Source: Burkholderia sp. 8Y (lineage in GTDB: Bacteria; Pseudomonadota; Gammaproteobacteria; Burkholderiales; Burkholderiaceae). From it: 64,000 bases of DNA. The notes under the pieces are model-generated. The model was not told the DNA's origin. It saw only the letters and a list, made by a program, of their open reading frames with translations, and searched no databases. Location of the stretch: assembly GCF_902506145.1 (NCBI RefSeq), contig NZ_LR733520.1, positions 2,339,476-2,403,475 on the forward strand, written 5' to 3'. The position numbers and the translations under genes are program-made. Shown piece after piece: positions 1,494-44,560 of the stretch; within the stretch, counting starts at the first letter, position 1; each line of letters starts with the position of its first letter.

Positions 1494-2231
1494 ATGCCAC
1501 GTTTTTTCGTTGACGGCCCGCTCGCGGCGGGCGCGACCCTTTCTCTTCCCGACGAAGTCGTTCGCCACGTGCACGTGCTGCGCCTTCAGATCGGCGACGC
1601 GATCACGCTCTTCGACGGAAGCGGCGGCGAGTATCACGGCGCGCTCGTCGAGATCGGCAAACGCGCGGCGCTCGCGCGCATCGACGCGCACAGCGAACGC
1701 GAAGCGGAGCCGCCGTATCGCGTGACGCTCGCGCAGGGCGTCGCGGGCGGCGACAAGATGGACTGGCTGATCGAGAAGACCGTGGAACTGGGCGTCGCGC
1801 AGATCGTGCCGCTCACGGCGGAGCGCGGCGTCGTGCGGCTGGCGGGCGAGCGCGCGCTGCGGCGTCAGGCGCACTGGCAGGCGCTCGTGCGCGCGGCATG
1901 CGAGCAATGCGGACGCAATCGCGTGCCGGAAGTGGCCGCGCCGCGCGATGTCGCCGCATGGCTCGCGGCATTGCCGGACGCAGCCGATGGCGAATTGCGG
2001 CTGCTGCTTTCGCCGCGCGCCGATGTCTCGTTCGCCGCGCTGCCTGGCGAACCGCCGCGCGGTCAGGTCACGATCGTGATCGGTCCGGAAGCCGGCTTTT
2101 CGCCGAAAGAAGAGAGCGAGATCGTCGCGGCGGGGTTTGCGGCGCTCGGTCTCGGACCGCGCGTTCTGCGCACCGAGACGGCCGGTATCGCGGTGCTCGC
2201 GGCGCTGGCCGCGCGCTGGGGCGGATGGTAA
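1494..2231 (+). CDS. rsmE: 16S rRNA (uracil1498-N3)-methyltransferase RsmE
   Basis: RsmE methylates N3 of U1498 in 16S rRNA using S-adenosylmethionine. The 245-residue protein matches the family length. It starts MPRFFVDGPL, has an N-terminal PUA-like part, and carries the SPOUT knot signatures IVIGPEAGFSPKEESEI (about residue 195) and LGPRVLRTETAGIAVL near the C-terminus. The last 11 residues and the stop codon are exactly repeated, as DNA, 281 bp further on (2474-2510), beyond the normal end of the gene. That downstream copy is non-functional. Confidence 0.95.
   Translation: MPRFFVDGPLAAGATLSLPDEVVRHVHVLRLQIGDAITLFDGSGGEYHGALVEIGKRAALARIDAHSEREAEPPYRVTLAQGVAGGDKMDWLIEKTVELGVAQIVPLTAERGVVRLAGERALRRQAHWQALVRAACEQCGRNRVPEVAAPRDVAAWLAALPDAADGELRLLLSPRADVSFAALPGEPPRGQVTIVIGPEAGFSPKEESEIVAAGFAALGLGPRVLRTETAGIAVLAALAARWGGW
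2193..2229 (+). repeat. Duplicated rsmE 3' end, copy A
   Basis: These 37 bases at the end of rsmE (encoding VLAALAARWGGW) recur perfectly at 2474-2510, where they are also followed by a stop codon. A second homologous block, starting GAGCCGCTA at 2373 and 2521 and containing a terminator, is also present twice. Copy A has about 130 bp more than copy B between the gene end and the terminator. The arrangement looks like a tandem duplication of gene end plus terminator, followed by a deletion or insertion. Confidence 0.9.
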
Positions 2232-2390
2232 ACCCGCGCCGCTCGACAACGGCGCGCATGCATCGACCGGCGGACAGGCGACCGTCTGGCGCGGCGTCGA
2301 TTTCGCGTTGATTTCGCGTCGATTGCGTCGGCGTGCGGCTACGCGCCGGCGCTCGACGGCGACGACACCGCTGAGCCGCTATCAAAGAGA

Positions 2391-2416
2391 AACAGCCCGA
2401 TGACGGGCTGTTTTCT
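2391..2416 (+). terminator. Rho-independent terminator after rsmE (first copy)
   Basis: A 9 bp stem AACAGCCCG / CGGGCTGTT with loop ATGA is followed by TTCT. It is the first of two nearly identical terminators behind rsmE. Because A-runs flank the other side, it may also act for the convergent barstar-like gene. Confidence 0.8.
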
Positions 2417-2473
2417 CAACGGCTGGAAAAGGGGCTTCAGTCCCGCGCAACCTGACCGACCCAGACAACCGCC

Positions 2474-2510
2474 GTGCTCGCGGCGCTGGCCGCGCGCTGG
2501 GGCGGATGGT
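2474..2510 (+). repeat. Duplicated rsmE 3' end, copy B
   Basis: This is an exact 37 bp copy of the rsmE C-terminal coding sequence. It is preceded by unrelated sequence, so it cannot be translated as part of an RsmE protein. It continues into a second copy of the terminator block at 2521-2590. Perfect identity over 37 bp suggests the duplication is recent, or that the copies are kept alike by gene conversion. Confidence 0.9.
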
Positions 2511-2536
2511 GAACCGCGCCGAGCCGCTACCAAAGC

Positions 2537-2564
2537 AAAACAGCCCGATCACGGGCTGTTTTCT
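2537..2564. terminator. Second, duplicated terminator between rsmE and the barstar-like gene
   Basis: An 11 bp stem AAAACAGCCCG / CGGGCTGTTTT with loop ATCA has T-runs on both strands. It can therefore end transcription from both sides. It lies 32 bp from the stop codon of the barstar-like gene, and its stem is identical to the first copy except in the loop and flanks. Confidence 0.85.
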
Positions 2565-2595
2565 TAGCTGGAGAAGCGGCTTCGGTCGAGCGGGA

Positions 2596-3168
2596 TCAAA
2601 CAAACGAATAAAACACGCGGAACGCCACGCGCCGCTCGGCCCAGAATTCGGCGGCATCGCGGAACACGTCGAGCAGCGTCTCGCGCCCTTCCTTGTCGAA
2701 TTTCTGCGCGATAGGCAACTGCTCCAGCACGATCACGAAGCCCGGCTGCGAGCCCGCGCGGTGAACGAGGTCGGTCAGGCAATCGTAGAGCGCGTCGTAG
2801 TTCTTCCCGAAATGCTTGGGAAACAGGAACGAAGTCGCGATGGTCTCCAGCACTTCCTGTTTGCTCTGCGCCTGGCCGAGATACGCATACAGAAAATGCT
2901 GGCGGAGGCGGTTCGCCTCGTCAGCGAGTTCCTGCACGCGGAACGCGCGAATCGACTGCACGATGTTCGGCCGCACCGTTGCGAACAAAGACTCCGACTC
3001 GTCGTGCGGATGCGCCGCCGGATGCTCGTTCGGATTCGGCTCGTCATCGGGTCTGTTGTCGTGTTCTGTCATGCGTAGCCGCAATACTCGCTGGAACAGG
3101 TTGCCGTCGCCGGTTGCGAAAAAATCACCCGCGACGCCGTTGTCGTGCGCGTAGATGTTGTCGCTCAT
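2596..3168 (-). CDS. Barstar-like RNase inhibitor with long N-terminal extension
   Basis: The C-terminal ~90 residues match the barstar (barnase inhibitor) family: FPKHFGKNYDALYDCLTDL corresponds to the barnase-binding helix and loop, followed by GFVIVLEQLP and ETLLDVFRDAAEFW. The first ~95 residues are an extra part rich in D, E, N, P and H, then a helical stretch. The whole protein is 190 residues, about twice the length of classical barstar. A GAGGGAT ribosome site precedes the ATG. The gene lies 15 nt after the barnase-like RNase gene on the same strand, so inhibitor and enzyme are probably cotranscribed. The inhibitor has no signal peptide and should be cytoplasmic, protecting the cell before the RNase is exported. 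Confidence 0.9.
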   Translation of the reverse strand: MSDNIYAHDNGVAGDFFATGDGNLFQRVLRLRMTEHDNRPDDEPNPNEHPAAHPHDESESLFATVRPNIVQSIRAFRVQELADEANRLRQHFLYAYLGQAQSKQEVLETIATSFLFPKHFGKNYDALYDCLTDLVHRAGSQPGFVIVLEQLPIAQKFDKEGRETLLDVFRDAAEFWAERRVAFRVFYSFV

Positions 3169-3183
3169 GCCGTTAATCCCTCG

Positions 3184-3705
3184 TTATCCCGCAATGCGTT
3201 TAAAACTGGCGTAGTGGTCGTCCGAGTAATAACAATCGTCGATCTGCCGCTTGGCGCCGCCGCATACGATCCGGCGCGCGCCGCGATCCCGCGCTCGCGG
3301 CGTGGGGACCGTGTATTCGTGGTAATAACCGCGCGCATGCCGTGGCAGCAAGCGTTCGCGGTTGCCGAACACGACGCCGTCTTTCTCGTAAGGGAAAGGC
3401 CCGCCCGCCTGGATCAATTGCAGTGTCTCAACCGCCTGCCTCGGCAATCGCGCGACCGCCACGGTTGCGAAGCCGTCGTTGCGTGCCTGCCGGGTCTCGA
3501 TGGTGGAAGGCCGGCCGGCGTCCGGCTGAATCTTCGCCGGGTCGACCACATTCGCCGGCGCTCCCGCCTTGGCCTGTTCCGCCGCATTCGCCGCATTCGC
3601 CGACGTTGCCGTGTCGGCCGCGCCGCTCCGGGAGTCGTCTTTGCCGCAGCCGCCCAGAATGACGCCGAGTGCGACGATGCAGGCAAGTGCCGTTGCACGC
3701 TTCAC
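3184..3705 (-). CDS. Barnase-like (N1/T1 family) ribonuclease, predicted lipoprotein
   Basis: This 173-residue protein has an N-terminal lipoprotein signal (LGVILGGC, Cys20), a low-complexity Ala-rich linker (about 22-60), and a microbial RNase domain. The catalytic triad of barnase is present: Glu130 in YYHEYTV, Arg145 in GARRIV, and His164 in DDHYASFKRI. I chose the GTG at 3705 because it places the signal peptide at the start; the longer frame to 3861 has a charged, non-export N-terminus. It is followed by the barstar-like gene, so enzyme comes before inhibitor. The role could be RNA scavenging or a weapon against other cells; the sequence does not decide. Confidence 0.88.
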   Translation of the reverse strand: MKRATALACIVALGVILGGCGKDDSRSGAADTATSANAANAAEQAKAGAPANVVDPAKIQPDAGRPSTIETRQARNDGFATVAVARLPRQAVETLQLIQAGGPFPYEKDGVVFGNRERLLPRHARGYYHEYTVPTPRARDRGARRIVCGGAKRQIDDCYYSDDHYASFKRIAG

Positions 3706-3899
3706 GAAACGAATGTCCCCGCGATGAACCGAAAATGCGACAACCACGAAAGATGTAAGGGTATCGCTAATGCCAGAGCGAAGCAACGTTCGGCGGGAAT
3801 TCGGAATTTTTTTCTCAACTCTGCCCGTGCGCAGGTCGAACGACTGAGAAAAAGCAACCACAACTAGCCCGAATCTGAGTGATTTTTAAACCGCTCAAG

Positions 3900-4062
3900 A
3901 TAATAATTGACGTGCTGGGAACGGAAACCTTTGGACAAGCTGCCTCACTTGTCGTCAGTTTCACGGCATGCGCTCCATGTCGAATGCCCTGCGTCTTTAG
4001 GGAACAGCAAATTCCCCCTTGCTCATGCCCCGGCGTGCCGCGTTCGCGGCACGCTTTTTTTT
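3900..4062 (+). ncRNA. Candidate small RNA, unnamed
   Basis: Between the RNase gene and maeB the plus strand shows four hairpins in a row and no credible reading frame. They are GACAAG/CTTGTC (3934-3953), GGCAT/ATGCC (3965-3988), GGGAA/TTCCC (4000-4016) and a strong GC-rich terminator with T8 (4033-4062). No plus-strand gene ends here, so the terminator needs a transcript of its own. A TTGACG at 3907-3912 could be a -35 box, but I see no good -10 behind it, so the 5' end is only a guess. It does not match 4.5S RNA or tmRNA by eye. Confidence 0.45.
4033..4062 (+). terminator. Strong intrinsic terminator of the candidate sRNA
   Basis: The stem GCGTGCCGC / GCGGCACGC with a GTTC loop is followed by eight T. 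It points to the plus strand, whose nearest upstream protein-coding gene on that strand is rsmE, more than 1.8 kb away and already provided with its own terminators. Confidence 0.85.
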
Positions 4063-4065
4063 GCC

Positions 4066-4099
4066 CGAAAAAAAAACGCGGCGGGATGGATCCGCCGCG
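4066..4099 (-). terminator. Rho-independent terminator of maeB
   Basis: On the minus strand the stem CGCGGCGG / CCGCCGCG (4077-4084 with 4092-4099) is followed by a run of T (plus-strand A-run from 4068 to 4076). It lies 27 bp after the maeB stop codon. Confidence 0.88.
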
Positions 4100-4125
4100 T
4101 CAGGCTTCAGGGGTGAGCGAAGCGG

Positions 4126-6420
4126 TCAGCGCGCCGCCGAAGCGTCCGCCACCAGCAGCGCCGTCATATTGACGATCCGCCGCACGGTGGCCGAGGCCGT
4201 CAGCACATGCACCGGCTTGGCCGCGCCGAGCAGAATCGGCCCGATCGCAATATTGTTGCCCGCCGCCGTCTTCAGCAGGTTGTACGAGATGTTCGCCGCG
4301 TCAATGTTCGGCAGGATGAGAAGATTCGCGTCGCCTTCCAGCGTCGATTCAGGCAGCACTTCGCGGCGCAGACGCGCGTCCAGCGCCACGTCGCCATGCA
4401 TTTCGCCGTCCACGTCGAGATCGGGCGCGCGCTCCTTCAGAATGGCGAGCACGTCGCGCATCTTCTGCGCGGTCGGCGCGTTGCTGGTGCCGAAGTTCGA
4501 ATGCGACAGCAGCGCGATCTTAGGCATGATGCCGAAGCGTTTCACTTCTTCCGCCGCGAGGATCGTGATTTCGGCCAGTTGCTCGGGCGTCGGATCGACG
4601 TTCACGTGCGTATCGACCAGAAAAATCTGGCGGCCCGGCAGCACGAGCGCGTTCATCGCCGCGTACACGTTGCAGCCGTCCTTCTTGCCGATCACCTGAT
4701 CGATGAAGTGCAGATGCCGATGCGTCGTGCTCACCGTGCCGCAGATCATGCCGTCGGCTTCGCCCTTCTTGACGAGCATGGACCCGATCAGCGTGGTGCG
4801 GCGGCGCATTTCCAGCTTCGCCATCTGCTCGCTGATGCCCTTGCGCGCCATCATCGTGTAATAGGTCTGCCAGAAGTCGCGGTAACGCTCGTCGTGGTCC
4901 GTGTCGACCACCGTGAAATCGACGCCCGGCGTGAGCCGCAGGCCGAACTTCGTGATGCGCTGGTCGATGACCGCCGGACGGCCGATGAGAATCGGCTTCG
5001 CGATTTTCTCGTCGACCGCGATCTGCACCGCGCGCAGCACGCGCTCTTCCTCGCCTTCCGCGAATACGATGCGCTTCTTCTCCGCCTCCACGCTGCGCGC
5101 AAGCTGGAACACCGGCTTCATCGTCGTGCCGCTGTGATAGACGAACTGCTGCAAGTGCTGCTCGTACGCGTCCATGTCTTCGATCGGACGCGTCGCCACG
5201 CCGCAATCCATCGCGGCCTTCGCCACCGCCGGCGCGATCTTCACGATGAGACGCGGATCGAACGGCTTCGGGATCAGATAGTCCGGCCCGAACGACAAGT
5301 CCTGAATGCCGTACGCCGTCGCGACGATATCGCTCTGTTCCTGGCGCGCGAGTTCGGCGATCGCGTTCACCGCGGCGATTTCCATTTCCTTCGTGATGGT
5401 CGTCGCGCCTGCGTCGAGCGCGCCACGGAAGATGAACGGGAAGCACAGAACGTTGTTGACCTGATTCGGATAGTCCGTGCGGCCGGTGGCGAGCACCGCG
5501 TCCGGACGCACCTCCAGCGCGAGTTCCGGCAGAATTTCCGGCGTCGGATTGGCGAGCGCGAGAATGAGCGGCTTCGCGGCCATGCCCTTCACCATCTCCT
5601 GCTTGAGCACGCCGCCGGCCGACAGACCGAGGAACACGTCCGCGCCTTCAATCACTTCCGCGAGCGTGCGCGTGCTCGTTTCGCGGGCGAAGCGTTCCTT
5701 GTCCGGGTCCATCAGTTCGACGCGGCCTTTGTAGACGACGCCGGCCAGATCCGTCACGAAGATGTTTTCGAGCTTCATGCCGAGATCGACGAGCAAGTCG
5801 AGACACGCGAGCGCCGCCGCGCCCGCGCCCGAGGCGACGAGCTTCACTTCGCCGATATCCTTGCCGACCACCTTGAGCCCGTTGGTGATGGCCGCCGCGA
5901 CGACGATGGCCGTGCCGTGCTGGTCGTCGTGGAACACGGGAATCTTCATGCGCTTGCGCGCCTCGCGCTCGACGATGAAGCAGTCCGGCGCCTTGATGTC
6001 TTCCAGATTGATGCCGCCGAAAGTCGGCTCCAGCGCGGCGATCACGTCCACGAGCTTGTGCGGATCGGTTTCGTTCAGCTCGATGTCGAACACGTCGATG
6101 CCGGCGAACTTCTTGAAGAGCACGGCCTTGCCTTCCATGACCGGCTTCGAGGCGAGCGGCCCGATGTTGCCGAGCCCGAGCACCGCCGTGCCGTTCGACA
6201 CGACGCCGACGAGATTGCTGCGCGCCGTGAAGCGCGCGGCGTTCAGCGGGTCTTCGACGATCGCCTCACACGCGAACGCCACGCCCGGCGAGTACGCCAG
6301 CGCGAGATCGCGCTGGTTGATCATCTGCTTGGTCGGGGCGATCGCGATTTTGCCGGGCGTCGGAAACTCGTGATAATCGAGCGCGGCTTCGCGCAACTTC
6401 ATATTGGCGGGAGTCGTCAT
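4126..6420 (-). CDS. maeB: NADP-dependent malic enzyme (MaeB type, with phosphotransacetylase-like domain)
   Basis: MaeB converts malate to pyruvate and CO2, making NADPH. The 764-residue protein has the two-part build of the family. An N-terminal malic enzyme region (about 1-430) contains [10 protein letters not shown], the metal/substrate stretch [17 protein letters not shown] and an NAD(P)-binding part [16 protein letters not shown]-terminal phosphotransacetylase-like domain (about 445-764) lacks acetyltransferase activity in studied members and serves in allosteric control by acetyl-CoA. I chose ATG 6420 ([18 protein letters not shown]); the 19 extra codons upstream do not fit the family. 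A TACAAT box at 6465-6470 on the minus strand may be its -10 element. Confidence 0.95.
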
Positions 6421-6464
6421 AAGGCGGGCTAGCAGTGCGGGAATTAGAATGGAACTTCGAACGC

Positions 6465-6470
6465 ATTGTA
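6465..6470 (-). promoter_or_regulatory. Possible -10 box of maeB
   Basis: TACAAT on the minus strand, 45 bp before the maeB start, followed by GCG as is common in this group. I could not find a good -35 box at 16-18 bp. Confidence 0.35.
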
Positions 6471-6671
6471 GCGCCAATCCAGCCCCGCTTTCGCGCGCAG
6501 TCCATGCAATTCAGCTACAAGTGCCGTGACCGGAGAACGCCTGATCGCCCGGCGGGGCAAGGCTTTCGACACATCATTCCGTTTTTTCGAGACATGCGGC
6601 GGCGCCCGAAGGCGCAGTCGTTGCCGCGCCGTCTTTCTCTTGCACTGCACAAATAACTCACTTCCCCGACG

Positions 6672-7667
6672 ATGCTTTCCGAGTTCTCCCTGATCGATCG
6701 ATACTTCGCCCGCCGCGCGAAAGCGCCCTCGCCGAGACAGGGCGACGCGCCGCTCGGCATCGGCGATGACTGCGCGCTGATCGCGCCGCCCGCCGGCCAT
6801 CAACTCGCGATCTCGACCGACATGCTCGTCGCCGGCCGCCATTTCTTCCCCGATGTCGATCCGCACGCGCTCGGCCACAAGGCGCTGGCGGTGAACCTCT
6901 CCGACCTCGCCGCGATGGGCGCGAAGCCGCACGCATTCACGCTCGCGCTCGCCTTGCCGCGCGCCGACGAAGCGTGGCTCGCCGCGTTCAGCGACGGCAT
7001 GTTCGCGCTGGCCGAACGCTTCGACTGCGCGCTCGTGGGCGGCGACACGACGGGCGGGCCGCTCAACATCTGCATCACCGTATTCGGCGATATCGCGCAC
7101 GGCGCGGCGCTGCGACGCGATGCAGCAAAACCCGGCGACGACATCTATGTGTCCGGCGTCCTCGGCGATGCCCGCGCAGGTCTCGGCGTCATGCGCGACG
7201 AATGGGCCGCGCCGGACGAAGCGAGCGCGTTGGCATGGAAGCGCGCGCTCGAACGGCCGGAGCCGCGCGTCGCGCTCGGGCTCGGTCTCGCGCTCGGCGG
7301 CATCGCGCATGCGGCACTCGACATCTCCGACGGCCTCGCGGGCGACCTCATGCATATCCTCGCGCGCTCGGGCGTCTCGGCAACCGTCGATGCCGACGCC
7401 GTGCCTTGTTCGGATGCCGTGCGCGCCCTGCCGGAGCCCGCGCGCCGCCAATGCACGCTCGCGGGCGGCGACGACTACGAACTCTGCTTCACCGCGCCGC
7501 GCGCGGCACGCGATGCGGTGGCGCGCGTCGGCGAGCGGGTGGGCGTGCCGCTCGCGCGCATCGGTACAATCGATTCCGCGGGCGTGCCCGCCATCGCCTG
7601 GCGCGACGGCGCGGGCGCGCCGCTCTCCCTGACGTTGCAAGGCTTCGACCATTTCCATGCAGATTGA
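6672..7667 (+). CDS. thiL: Thiamine-monophosphate kinase
   Basis: ThiL phosphorylates thiamine monophosphate to thiamine diphosphate, the cofactor needed by transketolase among others. The 331-residue protein shows the family landmarks: GIGDDCALI (29-37), the ATP/Mg site ISTDMLVAGRHF, NLSDLAAMGA and LVGGDTTGGPLN (121-132), then DISDGLAGDL further on and the C-terminal LAGGDDYELCFT. Its end overlaps pgpA by 11 nt, so the two are translationally linked. A thiL-pgpA-pncC order is common in betaproteobacteria. Confidence 0.96.
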   Translation: MLSEFSLIDRYFARRAKAPSPRQGDAPLGIGDDCALIAPPAGHQLAISTDMLVAGRHFFPDVDPHALGHKALAVNLSDLAAMGAKPHAFTLALALPRADEAWLAAFSDGMFALAERFDCALVGGDTTGGPLNICITVFGDIAHGAALRRDAAKPGDDIYVSGVLGDARAGLGVMRDEWAAPDEASALAWKRALERPEPRVALGLGLALGGIAHAALDISDGLAGDLMHILARSGVSATVDADAVPCSDAVRALPEPARRQCTLAGGDDYELCFTAPRAARDAVARVGERVGVPLARIGTIDSAGVPAIAWRDGAGAPLSLTLQGFDHFHAD

Positions 7668-8202
7668 ACCCAACGCCGCGAGCGAATCTCCGCCGCCGCG
7701 CTCCCCGTCCCCGGCCAAACCGCGCAAGGCGAGCGCGCGTTTCATGCTCACGCATCCGCTGCACATTTTGTCGCTCGGCTTCGGCAGCGGGCTTTCGCCG
7801 ATTGCGCCCGGCACCGTCGGCACGCTCTTCGCGTGGGCGTCGTTCGGGTCGCTCAACCGGCATCTGACGGTGGCGGAATGGGGCGCGCTGATCGCCGTCG
7901 GCTTTATCGCCGGATGCTGGTTTTGCGGCTTTACCGCGAAGAAGATGGGCGTCGCGGACCCGTCGCCGGTCGTGTGGGACGAGATCGTCGCGTTCTGGCT
8001 CGTGCTGCTGGTGGTCACGCCCGCGACGTTCACCGGGCAGTTGTGGGCGTTCATCGTGTTTCGCTTCTTCGACATGGTGAAGCCGCCGCCGATCCGCTAT
8101 TTCGACCGCCATCTGAAAGGCGGCTTTGGCATCATGTTCGATGATCTCGTCGCCGCGTTCTTCAGCCTGCTCGTGATTGCGCTGTGGCGCATGACCCTAT
8201 GA
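7657..8202 (+). CDS. pgpA: Phosphatidylglycerophosphatase A
   Basis: PgpA removes the phosphate from phosphatidylglycerol phosphate in the inner membrane, giving phosphatidylglycerol. The 181-residue protein has a charged, Pro/Ser-rich start of about 25 residues, then the conserved LGFGSGLSPIAPGTVGTLFAW segment (given here in part), several hydrophobic stretches, VWDEIVAFWL with its acidic residues, and the RFFDMVKPPPIRYFD motif. The start overlaps thiL. The length is normal for the family. Confidence 0.94.
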   Translation: MQIEPNAASESPPPRSPSPAKPRKASARFMLTHPLHILSLGFGSGLSPIAPGTVGTLFAWASFGSLNRHLTVAEWGALIAVGFIAGCWFCGFTAKKMGVADPSPVVWDEIVAFWLVLLVVTPATFTGQLWAFIVFRFFDMVKPPPIRYFDRHLKGGFGIMFDDLVAAFFSLLVIALWRMTL

Positions 8203-8241
8203 CCGTATGACGTTTCATTTTCCTGTCTGCGAGACACCGCC

Positions 8242-8742
8242 ATGCCAACCGATACCGTCGTTCATCAACTCGCGATCCGCGTCGGCAACAAACTGCGCGA
8301 CGAACGGCTGATGCTCGCCGCCGCCGAATCGTGCACGGGCGGCATGGTGGCGGCCGCGATCACGGACATTTCGGGCAGCAGCGCGTGGTTCGAGCGCGGC
8401 TTCGTGACCTATTCGAATCTGGCGAAAACGGAGATGATCGGCGTGCCCGCTGCCTTGATCGAGCAGCACGGCGCGGTGAGCGAACCCGTCGCGAAAGCGA
8501 TGGCCGAAGGCGCGCTGCGCAACAGCCGCGCGCAGGTCTCGGTGTCGATCACGGGCGTCGCGGGTCCCGCTGGCGGCAGCGAAGCGAAGCCGGTCGGCAC
8601 GGTCTGCTTCGCGTGGAGCAATCGCCTGCACACCGCGTTCGAGACGCAGCATTTCAAGGGCGATCGTGAACAGGTGCGTACGCAGGCCGCGGCGCATGCG
8701 TTGAGGAGACTGCTCGATTTTTTGGATCAGCGCGAGCGGTGA
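8242..8742 (+). CDS. pncC: Nicotinamide-nucleotide amidohydrolase (CinA C-terminal domain family)
   Basis: PncC deamidates nicotinamide mononucleotide to nicotinate mononucleotide in pyridine nucleotide recycling. The 166-residue protein is the stand-alone CinA-C form, with LAAAESCTGGMVAAAITD (25-42), GSSAWFERGFVTYSN and SITGVAGPAGGSEAKPVGTV. It ends LLDFLDQRER. The last ~50 bp, including this end and the stop codon, are the first unit of a decayed tandem array that fills the whole gap to pyrF; two later copies still encode DQRER or HQRER followed by a stop. Confidence 0.93.
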   Translation: MPTDTVVHQLAIRVGNKLRDERLMLAAAESCTGGMVAAAITDISGSSAWFERGFVTYSNLAKTEMIGVPAALIEQHGAVSEPVAKAMAEGALRNSRAQVSVSITGVAGPAGGSEAKPVGTVCFAWSNRLHTAFETQHFKGDREQVRTQAAAHALRRLLDFLDQRER

Positions 8743-9142
8743 ACGGGCGCCGCGCGTAGCAGCGGTCGCGGCGCATGCGCGGCGGAAGCGGCTCGGGTTT
8801 ATGGATCAGCGCGAGCGATAAGCCGTCGCCGCGCACGTCAGCGGTCGGAATCCCTGCGAAAGCTGCTCGGCTTTCTATAGAAACGCGAGAGTTACGGCAC
8901 CGCCGCGCACGTTAGCGGTCTGCGCCCGAACCCTGCGAAAAAGCCGCTCAAACCTCCTGCATCAGCGCGAGCGGTGAACGCGCGCCGCACATCAACCGTA
9001 GCGGCGCACGCGCTGCGAAAGCCGCGCGGCTTTCTGAATTAGCCGGGCGATAAGCGCCACCGCGCACATGAGCGATCGGAAACTCCGCGAATGCCGCCCG
9101 ACTCCCCGCATCACCGCGAGCAACAAACCCGCGCCGCACGCA
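8690..9142 (+). repeat. Decayed tandem array of the pncC 3' end
   Basis: Six related units follow one another. The conserved core CGCGAG (or a one-base variant) starts at 8731, 8810, 8884, 8966, 9044 and 9115, so the period is 71-82 bp. Each core is followed by a CCGCGC-rich part and a CTGCGAAA-GC part. The first unit is the true end of pncC. Units two and four still read FMDQRER-stop and LLHQRER-stop in the pncC frame; the others have drifted. The array runs up to the pyrF stop codon at 9143. I see no other feature in this gap. Confidence 0.85.
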
Positions 9143-9955
9143 TCACCGATACGCGTTGATCGTATCCCGCGTCTTCTTCGCGGCTTCGGCCGCCGCGCTC
9201 GCGTAGTCGTCGCCCTTGCCGGCATAGAGGATGGCGCGCGACGAGTTGATCAACATGCCCGTGCCGTTCGCGGTGCGGCCCGCGCGCACGGTCGCTTCGA
9301 CATCGCCGCCTTGCGCGCCGATGCCCGGAATCAATAACGGCATGTCGCCCACGATGCCGCGCACCGCTTCGATTTCCTTCGGAAACGTCGCGCCGACGAC
9401 CAGCCCCAACTGCCCGCTCGCATTCCACTTTTCTGCGGCGAGCTGCGCGACGACCTGATACAGCGGCTTGCCGTCCGTCGTGAGGAACTGCAGATCGGAC
9501 CCGCCCGCGTTGGACGTGCGGCACAGCACGATCACGCCCTTGCCTTCATGCGCAAGGTACGGCTCGATCGAATCAAAACCCATGTACGGATTCACCGTCA
9601 CCGCGTCCGCCTGGTAACGCTCGAACGCTTCCTTCGCGTATTGCTCGGCCGTGCTGCCGATATCGCCGCGCTTCGCGTCGAGAATGACCGGCACGCCCGC
9701 GTGCTTCTCGTGGATGTGCGCGATCAGGGCTTCGAGCTGATCCTCCGCGCGATGCGCGGCAAAGTACGCGATCTGCGGCTTGAACGACGACGCATACGGC
9801 GCGGTGGCATCGACGATGGTCTTGCAGAATTCGAAGATCGCGTCCGCCCGGCCGGCGAGCGCGCCCGGAAACTTCGACGGCTCCGGATCGAGGCCGACGC
9901 ACAGGAGCGATTGCGTGCGCGACCACGCGGCGTTGAGCGACTGGATAAAAGACAT
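9143..9955 (-). CDS. pyrF: Orotidine 5'-phosphate decarboxylase, type 2
   Basis: PyrF makes UMP from orotidine monophosphate, the last step of pyrimidine synthesis. The 270-residue length and the motif [19 protein letters not shown] (starting at residue 93) are those of the type 2 subfamily. [15 protein letters not shown] near the start, [15 protein letters not shown] and [12 protein letters not shown] are further family landmarks. The gene faces pncC tail to tail and has no terminator of its own that I can see; the decayed repeat array begins right at its stop codon. Confidence 0.95.
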
Positions 9956-34726: not shown

Positions 34727-34755
34727 GCGGTGCTTCGGACTGCTGTTGCCGCGAC

Positions 34756-35490
34756 TTACGGACGGCTGCCCGTCGGGAACGGCCATGCCGCCGCCGGGTT
34801 CAGCGCCGTCTTGACCGCAGTGGCCGGAGCCGCCGGAGCGGGCGTCGACACCGTGGTAGCCGTCGTTGCGGGAGCGGCAGCCGTCGTCTTTTTTGCAGCA
34901 GCAGCCTTCTTGGCCGGCGCCTTCTTTGCAGCAGGCTCGGCTTTCTTCGCTGCGGGAGCAGGCGCGGAAGCGGCAGGCGCAGCAGGGGCAGCGGCGGTTT
35001 TCGACGCAGCCTTCTTCGCAGGGGCCTTCTTCGCGGCAGCCTTCTTCGCGGGCGCTTTCTTCGCTGCGGCCTTCTTCGCCGCCGCCTTCTTCGCGGGCGC
35101 CTTCTTGGCGGCAGCCTTCTTCGCAGGCGCCTTCTTCGCGGCGGCCTTCTTCGCGGCAGCCTTCTTCGCAGGCGCCTTCTTGGCTGCGGCCTTCTTCGTG
35201 GCTACCTTTTTGGTGGCGACCTTCTTCGCTGCGGCTTTCTTGGCGGGCGCCTTCTTGGCCGCGACCTTCTTTGCGGCGACCTTCTTCGTGGCGACCTTCT
35301 TTGCTGCCGCCTTCTTGGCCGGCGCTGCCTTCTTCGCCGCGACCTTCTTCACGGCGGCTTTCTTGGCCGCGACCTTCTTCGTGGCGACCTTCTTCGCTGC
35401 TACCTTCTTGGCCGGTGCGGCGGCCTTCTTGGCGGGGGCTTTCTTTGCTGCAGCCTTTTTCGCGGCGGGTTTCTTCTTGGCAACTGCCAT
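34756..35490 (-). CDS. Histone H1-like, lysine/alanine-repeat DNA-binding protein
   Basis: Nearly the whole 244-residue protein is a low-complexity run of Ala, Lys and Pro in units such as [18 protein letters not shown] and AAKKAAAKK, starting [18 protein letters not shown]. The last ~45 residues lose lysine and end [15 protein letters not shown], a tail kept in related proteins. It resembles the C-terminal tail of eukaryotic histone H1 and bacterial AlgP/Hc-type proteins, so non-specific DNA binding and nucleoid compaction are likely. The DNA repeat makes length change by slippage or recombination probable. AAGGAG precedes the ATG by 8 nt. Confidence 0.88.
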
Positions 35491-37206: not shown

Positions 37207-37243
37207 AAATTCTCACCATCAATTTAGATCGGTTTGTACCATC

Positions 37244-37957: not shown

Positions 37958-38076
37958 CGTCGCTTCACTCCTCGGTTATGTTCATCGCATCACATAGCGC
38001 CTGGCATGCGATCGCAGTGGCTTCGTATCGGTGCCATAATCGCCGCTCTTGCCGCCAGGACTGATCGCATTCTCCG

Positions 38077-39474
38077 ATGCCGCTCGCCGTCAAAGCTTTC
38101 ATTGCTCCTCTCATCGTCGCGTGCGCGATGTTCATGGAAAGCGTCGACGCCAACGTCATCGTCACTGCGATTCCCGAAATGGCGCGTGCCTTCGGACGCG
38201 ATCCCGTCACACTCAAAGTCGCCGTCACCAGTTACGTGCTCGGCTTAGGCGTCTTCATTCCCATCTGCGGCTGGGTGGCCGACCGCTTCGGCGCACGCGC
38301 TGTCTTTCGCGCGGCCATCGGCGTGTTCGTCGTAGGTTCGCTGCTGTGCGCGGCATCGACTTCGCTCGGCCCCTTCACCGTCGCACGTTTCATTCAGGGC
38401 GTGGGCGGCGCGATGATGGTGCCCGTCGGCCGCATCATCATCTTCCGGTCGGTGCGCCGCTCGGAGTTCATTCGCGCGATGAACTACCTTTCCGTTCCCG
38501 CGATGCTCGGCCCGGCGGCGGGGCCTCTGCTCGGCGGCTTCATCACGACGTATCTGCACTGGCGGCTGATCTTCTTCATCAACATCCCGATCGGCATCGC
38601 GGGCATCTACCTGACCAATCGATACATCGCCGACTCGCGCGAAGAACACCCGGGCCGGCTCGACTGGCTCGGCTTCTTCCTCTCGGCGGGCGCCGGCGTG
38701 TTGCTGCTGCTCGGGCTGTCGCTTGTCGGCGGCGAGCTGGTGCCGCAAGGCGTCGCGTTCGCGATGTGCGTCGCGGGCGCACTGATGGCCGCGCTCTACC
38801 GCCTGTACGCGCGCCGGACCGCGCGGCCGCTCCTCGACTTGCGCTTCTTTCGCGTGCCGACGTTTCAGGCGAGCGTCGTCGGCGGCTCGCTCTTTCGCAT
38901 CGGGCTCGGTGCGGTGCCGTTTCTCTTGCCGCTCGCGCTGCAGGAAGGCCTCGGCATGACGGCGTTCAAGTCCGGCGCGATCACGTGTGCTTCGGCGTTC
39001 GGCGGCATGTTCATGCGCTCGCTGGCATCGCGCGTGCTGCATCGGTTTGGCTTCCGGCAGACGCTTCTGTACAACGCGGCGCTGTCCGGGCTGGCGATTG
39101 CGGCGTGCGGCACGTTCTTTCCCGCCACGCCGACGTGGGTGATCTGGGCCGTTGTGCTGCTCGGCGGCTTCTTTCCGGCGCTGCAGTTCACGAGCCTCAA
39201 CTCGCTCGCTTATGCGGAGATCGAAACACGCGATGTCGGGCGGGCTACGAGTCTTGCCAGCTTCGTGCAGCAGGTTTCGCTCGGGCTTGGCGTCACGGTG
39301 GCGGGCATCACGCTCGAGCTTACGCAGTATCTCAATGGACACGTTAGCGTGCGATGGTCGGACTTCTGGCCGGCGTTTCTTGTCGTCGGGTTATTTTCGT
39401 TTCTCTCGATGCCGGTTACGGCTCGGTTGGGGCGGGATGCGGGGAGCGAGATTTCTCGCGGGACGCGGGGGTAG
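38077..39474 (+). CDS. MFS drug exporter-like transporter (DHA2 type)
   Basis: The 465-residue membrane protein has about 12-14 hydrophobic helices. After the first helix comes SVDANVIVTAIPEMARAFG (motif D1 of the DHA2 group); motif A reads GWVADRFGARAVFRAAI; motif C-like text LGPAAGPLLGGFITTYLHWR precedes FFINIPIGIAG. These point to a proton-driven exporter of drugs or metabolites; the substrate is unknown. It is the only plus-strand gene between nrdA and nrdB, and its coding strand opposes theirs. Confidence 0.88.
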   Translation: MPLAVKAFIAPLIVACAMFMESVDANVIVTAIPEMARAFGRDPVTLKVAVTSYVLGLGVFIPICGWVADRFGARAVFRAAIGVFVVGSLLCAASTSLGPFTVARFIQGVGGAMMVPVGRIIIFRSVRRSEFIRAMNYLSVPAMLGPAAGPLLGGFITTYLHWRLIFFINIPIGIAGIYLTNRYIADSREEHPGRLDWLGFFLSAGAGVLLLLGLSLVGGELVPQGVAFAMCVAGALMAALYRLYARRTARPLLDLRFFRVPTFQASVVGGSLFRIGLGAVPFLLPLALQEGLGMTAFKSGAITCASAFGGMFMRSLASRVLHRFGFRQTLLYNAALSGLAIAACGTFFPATPTWVIWAVVLLGGFFPALQFTSLNSLAYAEIETRDVGRATSLASFVQQVSLGLGVTVAGITLELTQYLNGHVSVRWSDFWPAFLVVGLFSFLSMPVTARLGRDAGSEISRGTRG

Positions 39475-39499
39475 CGGTTCTCTTTTCGCCTGCCGGCGA

Positions 39500-39800
39500 G
39501 GTCGTGTCAGTGTGTTGGTGCGTCCCTCCGCGCGAGCGGGCATAGGTGCTTCTCTTAGCGTTCCGCTTCGTGGTTGCCTTGCGTCGTCGTGGGACCGGTT
39601 CTCGCGTCGGTTTATTGGCGCGCTCCTCGGCGGGGTGGGCATAGGTCTTTCTCCCCGCATGGTGGTTCTTGGTTGCCCTGACCCGTCGTGGAACTTGTTT
39701 CCGCGGCGGTCTATTTGCATTCCTCTCTGGCGCGGGCACACGTCTTACCGGCATTGCGGCTTCGTGGTTGCCTTGCCTCGGCGTGGAACCAAGTTCCACG
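39500..39800 (+). repeat. Decayed tandem repeat of 97-99 bp behind the MFS gene
   Basis: Units begin with ATAGGT or ACACGT at 39542, 39641 and 39738, giving periods of 99 and 97 bp. Shared parts include TGGTTGCC-TTG, GTCGTGGGAC/GTCGTGGAAC and the GGTTTATTGGCGCGCTCCTC / GGTCTATTTGCATTCCTC segment, followed by a CGGGC end. A partial unit precedes 39542. I could not trace the unit to the MFS gene or to nrdA. No gene is apparent in the gap. Confidence 0.7.
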
Positions 39801-39825
39801 ACAAGACAAGACAAGACAAGACAAC
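39799..39825 (+). repeat. ACAAG pentanucleotide microsatellite
   Basis: Almost five copies of ACAAG follow directly after the inverted repeat CGTGGAAC-CAA-GTTCCACG (39782-39800). Confidence 0.85.
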
Positions 39826-39834
39826 AAAGAAACA

Positions 39835-39874
39835 AAAAACAAAAGCCGGCACCGAGAAACCACCTCAGCACCGG
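39835..39874 (-). terminator. Terminator behind nrdA
   Basis: On the minus strand CCGGTGCTGAG pairs with CTCGGTGCCGG through 11 pairs, three of them G-U, which form only in this strand's RNA. A T-rich tract TTTTGTTTTTTG follows. It ends nrdA transcription 40 bp after the stop codon, so nrdB is not read from nrdA here. Confidence 0.72.
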
Positions 39875-39915
39875 CCTTAGCCAGCAGAAGAAACGACTCA
39901 ATCGCTAGCGATCAC

Positions 39916-42900
39916 TCACTGACATGCCTCACACTCGTCGAACCCCGCATCTCCCGGACGCATCATGCAGACGGGGCCATCGGCTTCCGGCTCGGCCGCC
40001 TCGACCGCTGGTGCAGCAGCAGCGTTGAACCCACCGCCCACGCCGCCGGCAGAAGAAGAAGAAGAAGCACCGCCCGACACACCGAAGCCGCCGCCCGAAC
40101 CCGCACCGCCGTCGCCCGACGGCACCGCGTTCAGCGCGCCGTGCGCCACCGTCGACTTCTCGACGTGCGTCGCCGCCATCGTGCGGAGGTAGTACGTCGT
40201 CTTGAGGCCGCGCAGCCACGCGAGCTTGTACACCTCGTCCAGCTTCTTGCCCGACGCGCCGCCCATGTAGATGTTCAGCGACTGCGCCTGATCGATCCAC
40301 TTCTGACGGCGCGACGCCGCTTCCACCAGCCACTTCGGATCGACTTCGAACGCCGTCGCGTAGATCGCGCGCAAGTCGGCCGGAACTCGGTCGATGCGTG
40401 AGAGCGTGCCGTCGAAGTACTTAAGGTCCGACACCATCACTTCGTCCCACAGGCCGCGCGCCTTCAGATCGCGCACCAGGTAGTCGTTGACGACCGTGAA
40501 TTCACCAGACAGATTCGACTTCACGTACAAGTTCTGGAACGTCGGCTCGATGCACGCCGACACGCCGATGATGTTCGAGATCGTCGCCGTCGGCGCAATG
40601 GCCACGCAGTTGGAATTGCGCATGCCGTGCGTCGCGATGCGCGAACGCAGCGTGGACCAGTCCATCGACTCGGACGCATCCACTTCCACGTAACCGCCGC
40701 GCGCGTCGGCCAGCAGCTTCACCGTGTCCTGCGGGAGAATGCCGCGATCCCACAGCGAGCCGCGATAGCTTGAATAGCGGCCGCGCTCTTCCGCCAGCTC
40801 CGTTGACGCGTAGTACGCGTAATAGCAGACAGCTTCCATCGAACGATCCGCGAACTCCACCGCTTCCTGCGACGCGTACGGCGTGCGCAGCAAGTGCAGG
40901 CAGTCCTGGAAGCCCATGATGCCCATGCCCACCGGACGATGCTTCAGGTTCGAGTTACGCGCCTTCGGCACCGCGTAGTAGTTGATGTCGATCACGTTGT
41001 CGAGCATGCGCATCGCGACGCTGATCGTGCGCTTCAGCTTCGCGTGATCGAGCGCGAGCGTGCCGTCGGCCTGCTTCGTCAGGTGCGCGACGAGGTTCAC
41101 CGAGCCGAGGTTACACACGGCGATCTCGGTGTCGCTCGTGTTCAGCGTGATTTCCGTGCACAGGTTCGACGAGTGCACGACGCCGACGTGCTGCTGCGGC
41201 GAACGCACGTTGCACGGGTCCTTGAACGTGATCCACGGATGGCCCGTTTCGAACAGCATGCCGAGCATCTTGCGCCACAAGTGCTGCGCCGGCACCTTCT
41301 TGAAGAGCTTGATCTCGCCGCGAGCTGCTTTCTCTTCGTAAGCGACGTACGCCTTCTCGAAGTCCGCGCCGAACAGATCGTGCAGGTCCGGGCACGTGGA
41401 CGGCGAGAACAGCGTCCATTCGCCGCCTTCCATCACGCGCTTCATGAACAGGTCGGGAATCCAGTTCGCCGTGTTCATGTCGTGCGTGCGGCGGCGGTCG
41501 TCGCCCGTGTTCTTGCGCAATTCCAGGAATTCTTCGATGTCGAGGTGCCACGTCTCCAGGTACGCGCACACCGCGCCCTTGCGCTTGCCACCCTGATTCA
41601 CCGCGACGGCCGTGTCGTTGACCACCTTCAGGAACGGCACGACGCCTTGCGACTTGCCGTTCGTGCCCTTGATATGCGAGCCGAGCGCGCGCACGCGCGT
41701 CCAGTCGTTGCCGAGCCCGCCCGCGAACTTCGAGAGCAGCGCGTTTTCCTTGAGCGCCTCGTAGATGCCGTCGAGGTCGTCGGCCACGGTCGTCAGATAG
41801 CACGACGAAAGCTGCGAGCGATGCGTGCCCGAATTGAAGAGCGTCGGCGTCGACGACATGAAGTCGAACGACGACAGCACGTTGTAGAACTCGATGGCGC
41901 GCGCTTCGCGGTCGATTTCGTTGAGCGACAGACCCATCGCGACGCGCATGAAGAACGCCTGCGGCAGCTCGATGCGCGTGCCGTCCACGTGCAGGAAGTA
42001 GCGGTCGTACAGCGTTTGCAGGCCGAGGTAGCCGAACTGCAGGTCGCGGTTCGCGTCGAGCGCGGCGCCGAGACGCTTCAGGTCGAACTGCTGCAGCTTG
42101 TCGTCGAGCAGGCCGGCTTCGACGCCGCGCTTGATGAACAGCGGGAAGTATTCGGCGTAACGCTCGCCCATTTCGGCTTGCGTCACTTCGCCTTCGAGAA
42201 TCTCGCGGCGGATGGTATGCAGCAGGATGCGCGCGGTGACCTGGCTGTACGCCGGGTCTTTCTCGATCATCGTGCGCGCGGCGAGAATGGCCGAATCGTA
42301 GACCTGATTCATCGGCACGCCGTCGTACAGATTCTTCACCGTTTCGGCGACGATGGGGTCGGCGGAAACGGCATCACCCAGATTCGCGCAGGCGGAGACG
42401 ATCAGCGCCTTCAGCGCGTCGAGGTCCAGCGGGCGCGTGACGCCCTTGTCCGTCACGTTGATGACGCCTTCGTGCGTCTGCGCGTTCGGCGCATGGCTGC
42501 GCTCCTGCTCGCGCTGCTGCGTGCGTTTCTCGCGATACAGCACGTAGGCGCGCGCCACGTTGTGCTCGCCGCCGCGCATCAGCGCGAGTTCGACCTGATC
42601 CTGAATGTCTTCGATATGGAACGTGCCGCCGTGCGGACGGCTGCGCACGAGCGCGCGCACGACCGCCTGCGTCAGTTGCTCGACCAGCTCGCGTACGCGA
42701 GCGGACGCCGCGCCCTGACCGCCGTTCACGGCGATGAACGCCTTCGTCACGGCAATCGCGATCTTCGACGGCTCGAACGACACCACGCTCCCGTTGCGAC
42801 GGATGACCTTGTAGTCGGCATACGTCGTGTTCGACGCGGGCGATTGCGCGCCCTGAACGTGCGCCCCGCCCGCAGGCTGCGTGGAGGCGCCTTCGAAGGA

Positions 42901-42927
42901 AGTCGTGGCGTTGTCGGTGGTTTGCAT
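39916..42927 (-). CDS. nrdA: Ribonucleoside-diphosphate reductase, alpha subunit (class Ia)
   Basis: NrdA reduces ribonucleotides to deoxyribonucleotides. The 1003-residue protein has an N-terminal ATP cone (about 38-130, YKVIRRNGSVVSFEPSKIAI) for dATP control and the alpha barrel with SSTPTLFNSGTHRSQLSSCYL, NLCTEITLNTSDTEIAVCNLGS (catalytic Asn-Cys-Glu loop) and NSNCVAIAPTATISNIIG. A Gly/Ser-rich linker with SSSSS encoded by a (GAA)n tract leads to the C-terminal redox pair in ECEACQ. ATG 42927 has AGGAG 8 nt upstream. Its promoter carries two NrdR boxes. Confidence 0.97.
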   Translation of the reverse strand: MQTTDNATTSFEGASTQPAGGAHVQGAQSPASNTTYADYKVIRRNGSVVSFEPSKIAIAVTKAFIAVNGGQGAASARVRELVEQLTQAVVRALVRSRPHGGTFHIEDIQDQVELALMRGGEHNVARAYVLYREKRTQQREQERSHAPNAQTHEGVINVTDKGVTRPLDLDALKALIVSACANLGDAVSADPIVAETVKNLYDGVPMNQVYDSAILAARTMIEKDPAYSQVTARILLHTIRREILEGEVTQAEMGERYAEYFPLFIKRGVEAGLLDDKLQQFDLKRLGAALDANRDLQFGYLGLQTLYDRYFLHVDGTRIELPQAFFMRVAMGLSLNEIDREARAIEFYNVLSSFDFMSSTPTLFNSGTHRSQLSSCYLTTVADDLDGIYEALKENALLSKFAGGLGNDWTRVRALGSHIKGTNGKSQGVVPFLKVVNDTAVAVNQGGKRKGAVCAYLETWHLDIEEFLELRKNTGDDRRRTHDMNTANWIPDLFMKRVMEGGEWTLFSPSTCPDLHDLFGADFEKAYVAYEEKAARGEIKLFKKVPAQHLWRKMLGMLFETGHPWITFKDPCNVRSPQQHVGVVHSSNLCTEITLNTSDTEIAVCNLGSVNLVAHLTKQADGTLALDHAKLKRTISVAMRMLDNVIDINYYAVPKARNSNLKHRPVGMGIMGFQDCLHLLRTPYASQEAVEFADRSMEAVCYYAYYASTELAEERGRYSSYRGSLWDRGILPQDTVKLLADARGGYVEVDASESMDWSTLRSRIATHGMRNSNCVAIAPTATISNIIGVSACIEPTFQNLYVKSNLSGEFTVVNDYLVRDLKARGLWDEVMVSDLKYFDGTLSRIDRVPADLRAIYATAFEVDPKWLVEAASRRQKWIDQAQSLNIYMGGASGKKLDEVYKLAWLRGLKTTYYLRTMAATHVEKSTVAHGALNAVPSGDGGAGSGGGFGVSGGASSSSSAGGVGGGFNAAAAPAVEAAEPEADGPVCMMRPGDAGFDECEACQ

Positions 42928-43306
42928 GTGCAAAACTCCTGGTGTTCGAATGGTGCGGATGATCCGCGGATTTATCACTTATGCCGCGTGCGGTGCCCTT
43001 TCTGGACGACGCTTTTTCGCGGTGTTTTGGCGGGCTGTGAAGACAGCAGGCCTTGAACACGAGTCGCGCGATGGCGGCCCGCACTGTTATGGCGTCGCGT
43101 GCGGTGCCCGCGTTGGCGCGCGGTGTCGGTCGACGCAACTCGCGCTCACTTGCATGCGTTCTTCACGGTGCTGCTTTGCTGGCGCTCGATGCGCTTACGG
43201 TTTCGGGACAACCCAAACCGCTTGCGCGCCGCCCCGGGCCAGCCAAACTTCTGATCCGCCGGAAAGCCGGCGGCGCCGGCTCTTGGGAGCGGGCGCCGCC
43301 TCTACA

Positions 43307-43353
43307 ACACAAGATATAGTGCAAATTACGTCTTTCGGCACCAAGTATAGTGG
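43307..43353. promoter_or_regulatory. Pair of NrdR boxes upstream of nrdA
   Basis: CACAAGATATAGTG (43308-43321) and CACCAAGTATAGTG (43339-43352) resemble the NrdR box and their centres are 31 bp apart, three helical turns. The box farther from the gene overlaps the -10. NrdR with bound dATP would close the promoter when deoxynucleotides are plentiful. Confidence 0.82.
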
Positions 43354-43371
43354 ACTTTCGACTGGTCTCAA
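43344..43371 (-). promoter_or_regulatory. nrdA promoter
   Basis: On the minus strand -35 TTGAGA (43366-43371) and -10 TATACT (43344-43349) are 16 bp apart, giving a transcript start near 43337 and a leader of about 410 nt. Confidence 0.65.
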
Positions 43372-43960
43372 AAAGGTTTATTTGCTTGCGAAGCGCCCGC
43401 GCGGGGTTGACTTTTGCTGCGCCAAAGCGCGGCAAGGACTCCCGCGCGAAGCTGTTGCGTCGCAGCGAGAAAGACGTCACGCGGTGGTTAGGTGCTGCTG
43501 ACGCTCTCGCCCAGACGGCGGGCGGATGTGAAAGAAAAAGTCGCGACGCCGCTGGGAGTGGTCGAACTGCGGGCCGCGATCAGTTGTGCGGGCGCACGCG
43601 ATGTCGGAGTGGCCGGCGATGGCGTCAATCGCCTACCGCGTCACGACGATCCGCGCGAACGCGTCTTTGAGCGACACTTATGGCTACTCGCGCGTTCGTT
43701 AACGATCGGTAACGGTCCTAGCCGCGAAACCACGACACACGTGCACGCCCCTCGCGCTCATCGCTGGAAAAAAAGAATTGCTAAACGGCGTCGTCCTCGC
43801 GAATCTTGACCTGCGGCGACACGCGCAAAACCGCGCGGGGATCGAAGTACGGACGCCCATAGCGAGCGCGTGCTCCTGAAGAACCGCGGTCAAGTCGCTG
43901 TCGAAGTCGTCGCACCGCAGGTTGTAGCTGTCGATCGGGGCGAGCGTCGACGACACCGCA
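43372..43960. other. Gene-free stretch between nrdA and the PP0621-like repeats
   Basis: I find no supported gene here. On the minus strand, 43801-44020 can be read in pieces that faintly recall the start of AmpD (SWLQ, then SPN and DARP), but the frame is not continuous. Everything else looks like drifting non-coding DNA. Confidence 0.4.
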
Positions 43961-43969
43961 GCAGGACGG

Positions 43970-44560
43970 ATTGGGCGACGCCATGAGAGCCGCGCTCTGC
44001 AGCCAGCTTTGCGCGTCGATGTGTGAATCGCGGACAAGCGGCACGTTGATCCTTCGTCGCGGCTGCCCCGGACGCGACGCGTGGCGTCGAGCGTGCTTGG
44101 AACAACGAAAGCGTTGGCCGGCGACCACCATCGATCGACTGGTAGGCGCAGGCACGCGTCGATGTCTCAACCGCGCAAGCGGCGAGTTCATCTGGCGTCG
44201 CGACCGCCCGGACGCGCCGCATGACGCCGAGCGAACTCGGAGCTACCAGACCTTGGCCGCGACGATCACCGATTCACCCGCCGAAGCCGCCCGGATGCGC
44301 CGCATGACAGCGCGCATGCTCCGAGCAGCGGAAACGCTGGCTAGCAACGACTACCGATTCGCTCGCGCGCTTACGGCGTCGACATATAAAACGCGCGCAC
44401 GCGCCACGCTCATCTGGCGTCGCGGCCGCTTGGACGTGCCGCGTGACGACGCGCATGCTCCGCGCAGCAGAAACGCTGCCCCGCGACGACGATCGATTCG
44501 CTGGTTGGCGTATGCACGCCGCACTGCACGCAGCGCACAAGCGGATCGGCGAGCCGTGGC
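43970..44560 (-). repeat. Decayed tandem copies of the PP0621-like gene 3' end
   Basis: The native gene end (44410-44560) is followed on the minus strand by about four broken copies. The homologous core, GCGCATGCTCC in the native copy (44451), recurs at 44312, 44229 and 44089, with a weaker trace near 43987; intervals are 139, 83 and 140 bp. Translated, the copies still show VVASQRFRCSEHARCH and VVAGQRFRCSKHARRH against native VVAGQRFCCAEHARRH. The gene-end junction TCATCTGGCGTCGCG is found at 44410 and again at 44187. Confidence 0.82.

Follow-up and report, generated by a model that had tools for sequence, protein, structure and literature searches.

Copies of gene 3′ ends concentrate at convergent junctions in a Caballeronia clade

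INTRODUCTION

What leaves copies of the end of a gene in the spacer that follows it? The question is raised by a 64-kb stretch (C2:2339476–2403475; the whole of it is called the window below) of a 6.28-Mb draft genome of a soil-dwelling Caballeronia, here the focal genome. The named genes of the window are rsmE, a barstar-family gene, pncC, pyrF, the genes for an MFS transporter and for the large subunit of ribonucleotide reductase, and a PP0621 family gene; by pncC, the nearest named relative is Caballeronia sp. GAFFF1 (98% at the protein level). According to a preliminary description of the window, rsmE, pncC and the PP0621 gene are each followed by copies of their own 3′ end, several of which keep the stop codon. 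Both statements were confirmed: the copies number 1, 5 and 3, respectively, and the stop codon is in place in the second copy of the rsmE end and, as judged by eye, in three of the five pncC units. Here we describe these copies, their bias towards convergent junctions, their presence or absence in sister species, two clean cases of duplication and one junction that has been duplicated differently in different species. Probably, the arrays stem from ordinary short tandem duplication that survives mainly at junctions where it damages neither gene and leaves promoters untouched.

RESULTS

Gene-end copies and junction type

Genes were predicted with a purpose-written caller. The final 150 bp of each gene was compared with its own downstream spacer (spacers of at least 60 bp), a score of at least 40 being taken as a match. 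On the focal chromosome 1.26 Mb with 1083 genes was scanned, the window included. Matches were found for 13 of 581 gene ends, against 0.1 on average for mismatched pairs and 3/737 for the 5′ analogue; the preliminary description had proposed to look for such an excess at 3′ ends. Comparison of gene ends with spacers in reverse complement gave 0 matches on this chromosome. The type of neighbour mattered: 10 of 166 convergent stops (one of the 10 being a doubtful gene call of 138 bp, dropped from the pooled count below) but 3 of 415 codirectional stops had a match (P = 4 × 10⁻⁴), and at 5′ ends the counts were 0/324 (divergent) and 3/413 (codirectional).

Three sister genomes (G048, G039 and G049), which together with the focal genome are referred to as the clade, were sampled over 400 kb each. 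Convergent and codirectional 3′ ends gave 5/60 and 0/105 in G048, 2/54 and 0/122 in G039, and 3/52 and 1/111 in G049; the corresponding figures for divergent and codirectional 5′ ends were 0/94 and 1/107, 0/100 and 0/123, and 0/100 and 0/112. When the four genomes were pooled (2051 genes, gene calls <200 bp dropped and all gaps allowed), a copy of the own end was found at 20 of 616 convergent and 3 of 1435 codirectional stops, whereas for starts the counts were 0/616 (divergent) and 3/1435 (codirectional). Direct repeats (shift 40–700) counted by junction gave 15/308 convergent, 14/1433 codirectional and 0/308 divergent junctions. Thirteen of the 14 codirectional repeats lie in spacers >500 bp, and four are the PP0621 locus, seen once per species. 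The excess at 3′ ends is genuine, and it is concentrated at convergent junctions with hardly any at other 3′ ends.

The earlier suggestion that gene ends as such are copied is not supported. What is duplicated is a segment of the junction, with either gene end or both of them in the unit.

Duplication events in sister species

Two cases are clean enough for the unit to be read directly. At C2:2251394–2251666 of the focal genome 136 bp is present twice (99% identity), and at G048:277347–277653 153 bp is present twice (93%). In both, the copies stand head-to-tail and the shift equals the unit length; the other cases are more decayed. The two genes of pair 204 overlap by 4 bp in the focal genome, G039 and G049, and in G048 they are separated by a gap of 149 bp with a 153-bp tandem duplication whose unit holds the ends of both genes. 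Pair 213 has been duplicated differently in different species. Its gap measures 206 bp in the focal genome, ~174–177 bp in G048, 60 bp in G039 and ~650–653 bp in G049: the focal genome duplicated the end of the left gene together with the terminator, G048 and G049 duplicated the end of the right gene and a portion of the terminator, in G049 repeatedly, and G039 keeps a single spacer. Across 52 genomes this gap is 26–144 bp in 46 and an overlap in 2, the outliers being G048, the focal genome, G038 (273 bp) and G049. Further duplicated junctions are pair 253 (focal genome) and pair 199 (G048 and G049); the latter is recognizable by eye and has a z-score of 6.1, yet falls below the uniform repeat rule used for the spacer lengths below. 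For pairs 204, 213 and 253 and for rsmE, relatives retain the single-copy ancestral state.

Two other junctions were noted. At pair 125 (C2:2146112–2146453, 342 bp, in the focal genome) G039 has one repeat of the word CGGTCCTAG, which contains a stop, and G049 has more; these duplications are very short and carry a stop codon with them. At the convergent junction C2:2233189–2233236 the focal genome has a terminator-like hairpin with no counterpart in G048, G039 or G049 and with no obvious duplication.

Spacer lengths

Spacer lengths were compared among the four genomes, junctions with fewer than three genomes or with any spacer >2000 bp being dropped. Differences of at least 40 bp were found at 14 of 37 convergent, 9 of 178 codirectional and 3 of 40 divergent junctions. 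By the uniform rule a local repeat accompanies 6 of the 14 variable convergent junctions, 3 of the 9 codirectional and 0 of the 3 divergent ones. Changes with a repeat are enriched at convergent relative to codirectional junctions (6/37 versus 3/178, P = 0.001), and so are changes without one (8/37 versus 6/178, P = 5 × 10⁻⁴); the share of changes with a repeat does not differ between convergent junctions and elsewhere (6/14 versus 3/12, P = 0.43). Relative to divergent junctions the comparison is 6/37 versus 0/40 (P = 0.01) with a repeat and 8/37 versus 3/40 (P = 0.11) without.

The rsmE junction

The gene rsmE (1494–2231, + strand; Pfam and NCBIfam matches) is the left member of a convergent pair with the barstar-family gene (2596–3168, − strand; family match). 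Its end (2189–2234) is repeated at 2470–2515 with 96% identity, and a terminator stretch (first copy 2369–2416, + strand) is repeated at 2517–2564 with 90% identity, so that the second copy (2470–2564, + strand) consists of the final 43 bp of rsmE, stop codon included, joined to the terminator stretch; the gene-end copy matches at 40 of 41 positions. The unit had been put at about 280 bp. Because 2241–2370 (+ strand, ~130 bp) is an insert in the first copy, the duplication is rather ~147 bp, that is, 281 minus the insert. By sequence match, the inserted fragment is 85% identical to the interior of a gene at C2:623299–623417, 1.7 Mb distant, which from its sequence appears to encode a phosphonopyruvate decarboxylase. 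Elsewhere in the genome the rsmE region matches this donor gene through the insert, and a 30-base piece matches one further place. None of the three sisters compared has the insert in its rsmE–barstar spacer; their spacers measure 77–97 bp with a single terminator stretch, against 364 bp in the focal genome and 48–237 bp across 52 other genomes of the genus. (Genomes whose matches were split or partial, including G019, G026, G030, G043 and G045, were left out of this genus-wide survey.) The insert looks like an ectopic templated insertion. As a general source of spacer sequence such gene fragments were rejected: spacers with a match elsewhere in the 1.26-Mb sample numbered 4/80 (convergent), 8/396 (codirectional) and 7/153 (divergent), with no clear convergent excess over divergent.

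The pncC–pyrF array

Between pncC (8242–8742, + strand; family matches) and pyrF, the right gene of the pair (9143–9955, − strand; OMPdecase match), lies a 400-bp spacer (8743–9142) that is nearly tiled, within 8759–9142, by five degenerate units of 71–81 bp on the + strand: 8759–8836, 8908–8987 and 8988–9068, which keep the stop codon, and 8837–8907 and 9072–9142, which have lost it. Each of the five scores higher than the best of 200 shuffles and resembles ~61 bp from the end of pncC together with the 16-bp gap seen in GAFFF1. The array matches nothing but itself in the genome. In the focal genome, G048 and G039 alike, every one of the six frames of the array contains stops, so that it was rejected as coding sequence.

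The gap between pncC and pyrF is 15–24 bp in 11 of 18 measured genomes (12 further of the 30 loci were unmeasurable). Among the nearest relatives it is 400 bp in the focal genome, 400 in G048, 16 in G041, 400 in G039 and 93 in G049, and the gene tree reads (focal,(G048,(G041,(G039,G049)))), with support of 1.0 for the node that places G041 inside the clade and 0.56 for G039 with G049. Since units from different species intermix in a tree of the units (best between-copy matches 63–81%), the array is probably older than the clade, as judged from sequence; this tree is weak evidence, three of six G039 units and one of five G048 units not exceeding the best of 200 shuffles. The same mixing disfavours a separate gain in each species, with the same reservation about the tree. 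If G041 had lost the array by collapse between copies, its gene end would look like the last array copy, and by eye the G041 pncC end does resemble the last copy of G049 and not the gene ends of its sisters. We infer that such a collapse may have taken place, separate gains being the alternative.

The spacer is exactly 400 bp in the focal genome, G048 and G039 (loci L005 and L006) despite many substitutions and indels. A conserved array length was considered and rejected, as ungapped identity over the 400 bp is just 0.27–0.36 and alignment needs many gaps; the equal length is probably a coincidence.

The PP0621 and MFS arrays

The PP0621 family gene (44410–44730, − strand; NCBIfam NF041023, 67 bits with a cut-off of 45) is followed on the same strand by copies of its end at 44279–44363 (67/85 positions), 44188–44275 (67/87, reaching the stop position) and 44055–44182 (88/127). 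In the genome this array, too, matches itself alone. It sits in a codirectional spacer, whereas rsmE and pncC are at tail-to-tail junctions.

A fourth array, of three units, had been noticed behind the MFS gene (39565–39790, + strand). It is real, with a 32-nt core at 39565, 39664 and 39759, and of another kind: the ends of the two flanking genes give no match to it (z = 0.6 and 1.6), intergenic sequence elsewhere in the genome does, and it is probably made of pieces of a dispersed intergenic repeat. Intergenic stretches behind several genes (L037, L038 and L039; window 39475–39900) have in common a GTGGAACTTGTT...GTCGGTCTATTAGCGTTGCCCC motif and a CACTTTCTTTGC hairpin; decayed pieces of this repeat appear to make up the MFS array. 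A single mobile family is retained as an explanation for the MFS array and was rejected for the gene-end copy of rsmE and the arrays of pncC and PP0621, which no dispersed family explains and whose units are unrelated, as the preliminary description had held.

Other repeats and RNA features

The only Rfam match at gathering score in the whole window is a tRNA (56311–56384); no other structured RNA was matched. A gene at 34756–35490, presumably encoding a histone-H1-like protein, contains ~30 repeats of 15 bp. Elsewhere in the focal genome, a spacer of ~1.06 kb (C2:1136975–1138032) is built of a 108-bp tandem unit (89% identity), and 128 bp of spacer sequence at C2:2352–2479 recurs with 100% identity, inverted, ~178 kb away at C2:180769–180896.

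Controls outside the clade

Control loci are fewer than clade loci and, since most surround pncC, were not drawn at random. For direct repeats, the counts at convergent, codirectional and divergent junctions were 0/20, 0/132 and 0/20 in G105 and 0/22, 1/114 and 0/21 in G099, both from other genera of the same family; 0/31, 4/205 and 0/35 at 20 other Caballeronia loci, which are orthologous to one another and for which the mismatched 5′ control is inflated (3.0); and 3/138, 0/562 and 0/136 at 60 loci of other genera. The last set has a convergent bias (3/138 versus 0/698, P = 0.004), two of its three convergent repeats sitting on a single contig.

Gene-end copies at convergent stops are more frequent in the clade (20/332) than in the controls (0/192; P = 2 × 10⁻⁴), also when the focal genome is taken by itself (10/166, P = 4 × 10⁻⁴), and direct repeats at convergent junctions likewise (15/308 versus 3/211, P = 0.048). 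Codirectional stops are no higher in the clade (4/753 versus 2/514, P = 1). As far as sampled, the excess is strong in this clade alone.

DISCUSSION

A probable reading: duplication filtered by selection

The account that we consider probable needs no special mutation. Head-to-tail duplications of, very roughly, 40–300 bp would arise as ordinary mutations. One that runs from the end of gene X into the spacer or the end of gene Y would still leave a complete X and a complete Y and harm neither protein, and at a convergent junction promoters, ribosome-binding sites and operons would be undisturbed as well. These duplications could become fixed and then decay through point mutation and small indels; further rounds may enlarge some arrays, slippage between copies may collapse others, and one junction may be hit repeatedly with different breakpoints. 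Slippage or end-joining presumably makes the duplications.

Selection, and not a local hotspot of mutation, is inferred to produce the convergent bias. Among the spacer lengths, changes without a repeat are enriched at convergent junctions about as much as changes with one, which favours selection. Codirectional spacers of at least 300 bp (2/153 with gene-end copies) are not significantly poorer than convergent stops (P = 0.28). Of the repeats in the focal genome, those lying wholly inside genes keep the reading frame in 10 of 10 cases and those at other places in 9 of 18; in the sisters 5 of 6 repeats inside genes keep it, and the exception spans two genes. The frame and length data together fit a general duplication process seen through selection, and they are also compatible with a hotspot or a lineage-specific rate.

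Several points tell against this reading. The 20 convergent stops are not independent, as they represent 18 junctions, and pncC and at least pair 213 are each counted three times, once per species; the pooled P-values are therefore too small. The gene caller missed the PP0621 gene, which makes the codirectional counts slightly low. Read by eye, the breakpoints of the two clean cases show no clear shared word that would mark microhomology or slippage. Codirectional spacers of at least 150 bp have copies in 2 of 369, significantly below convergent stops (P = 0.006); under selection, promoters in those spacers must be the explanation. Finally, plain selection should act in every lineage, and the pooled controls do not show the bias: they gave direct repeats at 3/211 convergent versus 5/1013 codirectional junctions (P = 0.15) and gene-end copies at 0/192 convergent and 2/514 codirectional stops. 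The lineage thus seems more prone than the control genomes to duplicate, or to tolerate duplication.

Other explanations

It is possible, if unlikely, that the rate of short tandem duplication itself is raised in this lineage, for example because a repair or exonuclease function has changed, and that convergent junctions merely reveal it. Both comparisons of the clade with the controls at convergent sites agree with this; the even counts at codirectional stops do not, and the controls are the few, non-random loci described above. Ku end-joining genes, the sole repair genes compared, were present in 55 of the 58 genomes from the genus and do not distinguish the clade, so that non-homologous end-joining was rejected as its special trait.

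More doubtful is a mutational hotspot at convergent junctions, where converging transcription (supercoiling, R-loops, RNA polymerase collisions) or terminator hairpins would stall replication and provoke template slippage. The strong convergent bias, the repeated hits on pair 213 in several lineages, the terminators included in several units and the poverty of codirectional spacers of at least 150 bp would all be expected of it. It accounts less well for the similar enrichment of length changes without a detected repeat, and the pncC and pair 204 units have no evident terminator. Nor is there a steady strand rule. In the focal genome, the five flagged junctions between 2.0 and 2.46 Mb copy the left gene, which is head-on by GC skew, whereas in the sisters the right gene was copied at pairs 199 and 213; a link to the replication strand was rejected as inconsistent. 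Errors at transcription ends, proposed in the preliminary description, are possible and not needed. We would give little credence to the stronger form, a true, lineage-specific hotspot driven by converging transcription, by which tail-to-tail spacers would grow through repeated copying of gene ends and consist partly of decayed ones.

It is very unlikely that the duplications were favoured for supplying a second terminator or separating convergent genes and so lessening read-through and antisense transcription: units at rsmE, pair 213 (focal genome) and pair 253 do hold a whole terminator stretch, and the overlapping genes of pair 204 have been separated in G048, but the pncC units lack an obvious terminator, their array was apparently lost again in G041, and copies decay without visible constraint. 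Remnants of site-specific integration are scarcely credible, since, although integrative elements are known to duplicate gene 3′ ends, the clean copies adjoin head-to-tail with no foreign DNA, integrase or fixed core between them (the insert at rsmE comes from a host gene), breakpoints vary within one junction and a unit can hold both gene ends.

Meaning and relation to known systems

These arrays show one concrete, countable way in which spacers between convergent genes gain DNA, and they record in nature a mutation rarely seen in the laboratory: an Escherichia coli mutation accumulation study lists short tandem duplications in 0 of 67 wild-type and 1 of 37 mutS lines (PMC10292909). The annotation of small genes and RNAs can also be misled by spacers that contain copied gene ends, stops and terminators. 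A hotspot, if true, would tie transcription geometry to genome growth.

Among known systems, integrative elements at gene 3′-end attachment sites likewise leave duplicated gene ends; here there is no element between clean copies and no fixed breakpoint, and the ends of both genes can be duplicated. Dispersed intergenic repeats such as REP, STAR and RU probably include the family of the MFS array, in contrast to the gene-end copies at rsmE, pncC and PP0621, which are local. The multi-copy pncC array resembles an old minisatellite or variable number tandem repeat of bacterial spacers, and differs in that units derive from the neighbouring gene end and relatives show the single-copy state. Literature searches yielded no paper on short tandem duplications concentrating at convergent junctions, which is weak evidence of absence as subscription journals were thinly covered. 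Short tandem duplication, by slippage or illegitimate recombination, is itself a known mutation, and the likeness is close: units stand head-to-tail, can be of any sequence, decay with age and change in number. The novelty lies in where the arrays are found, for unlike generic short tandem duplications they concentrate at convergent junctions and carry gene 3′ ends.

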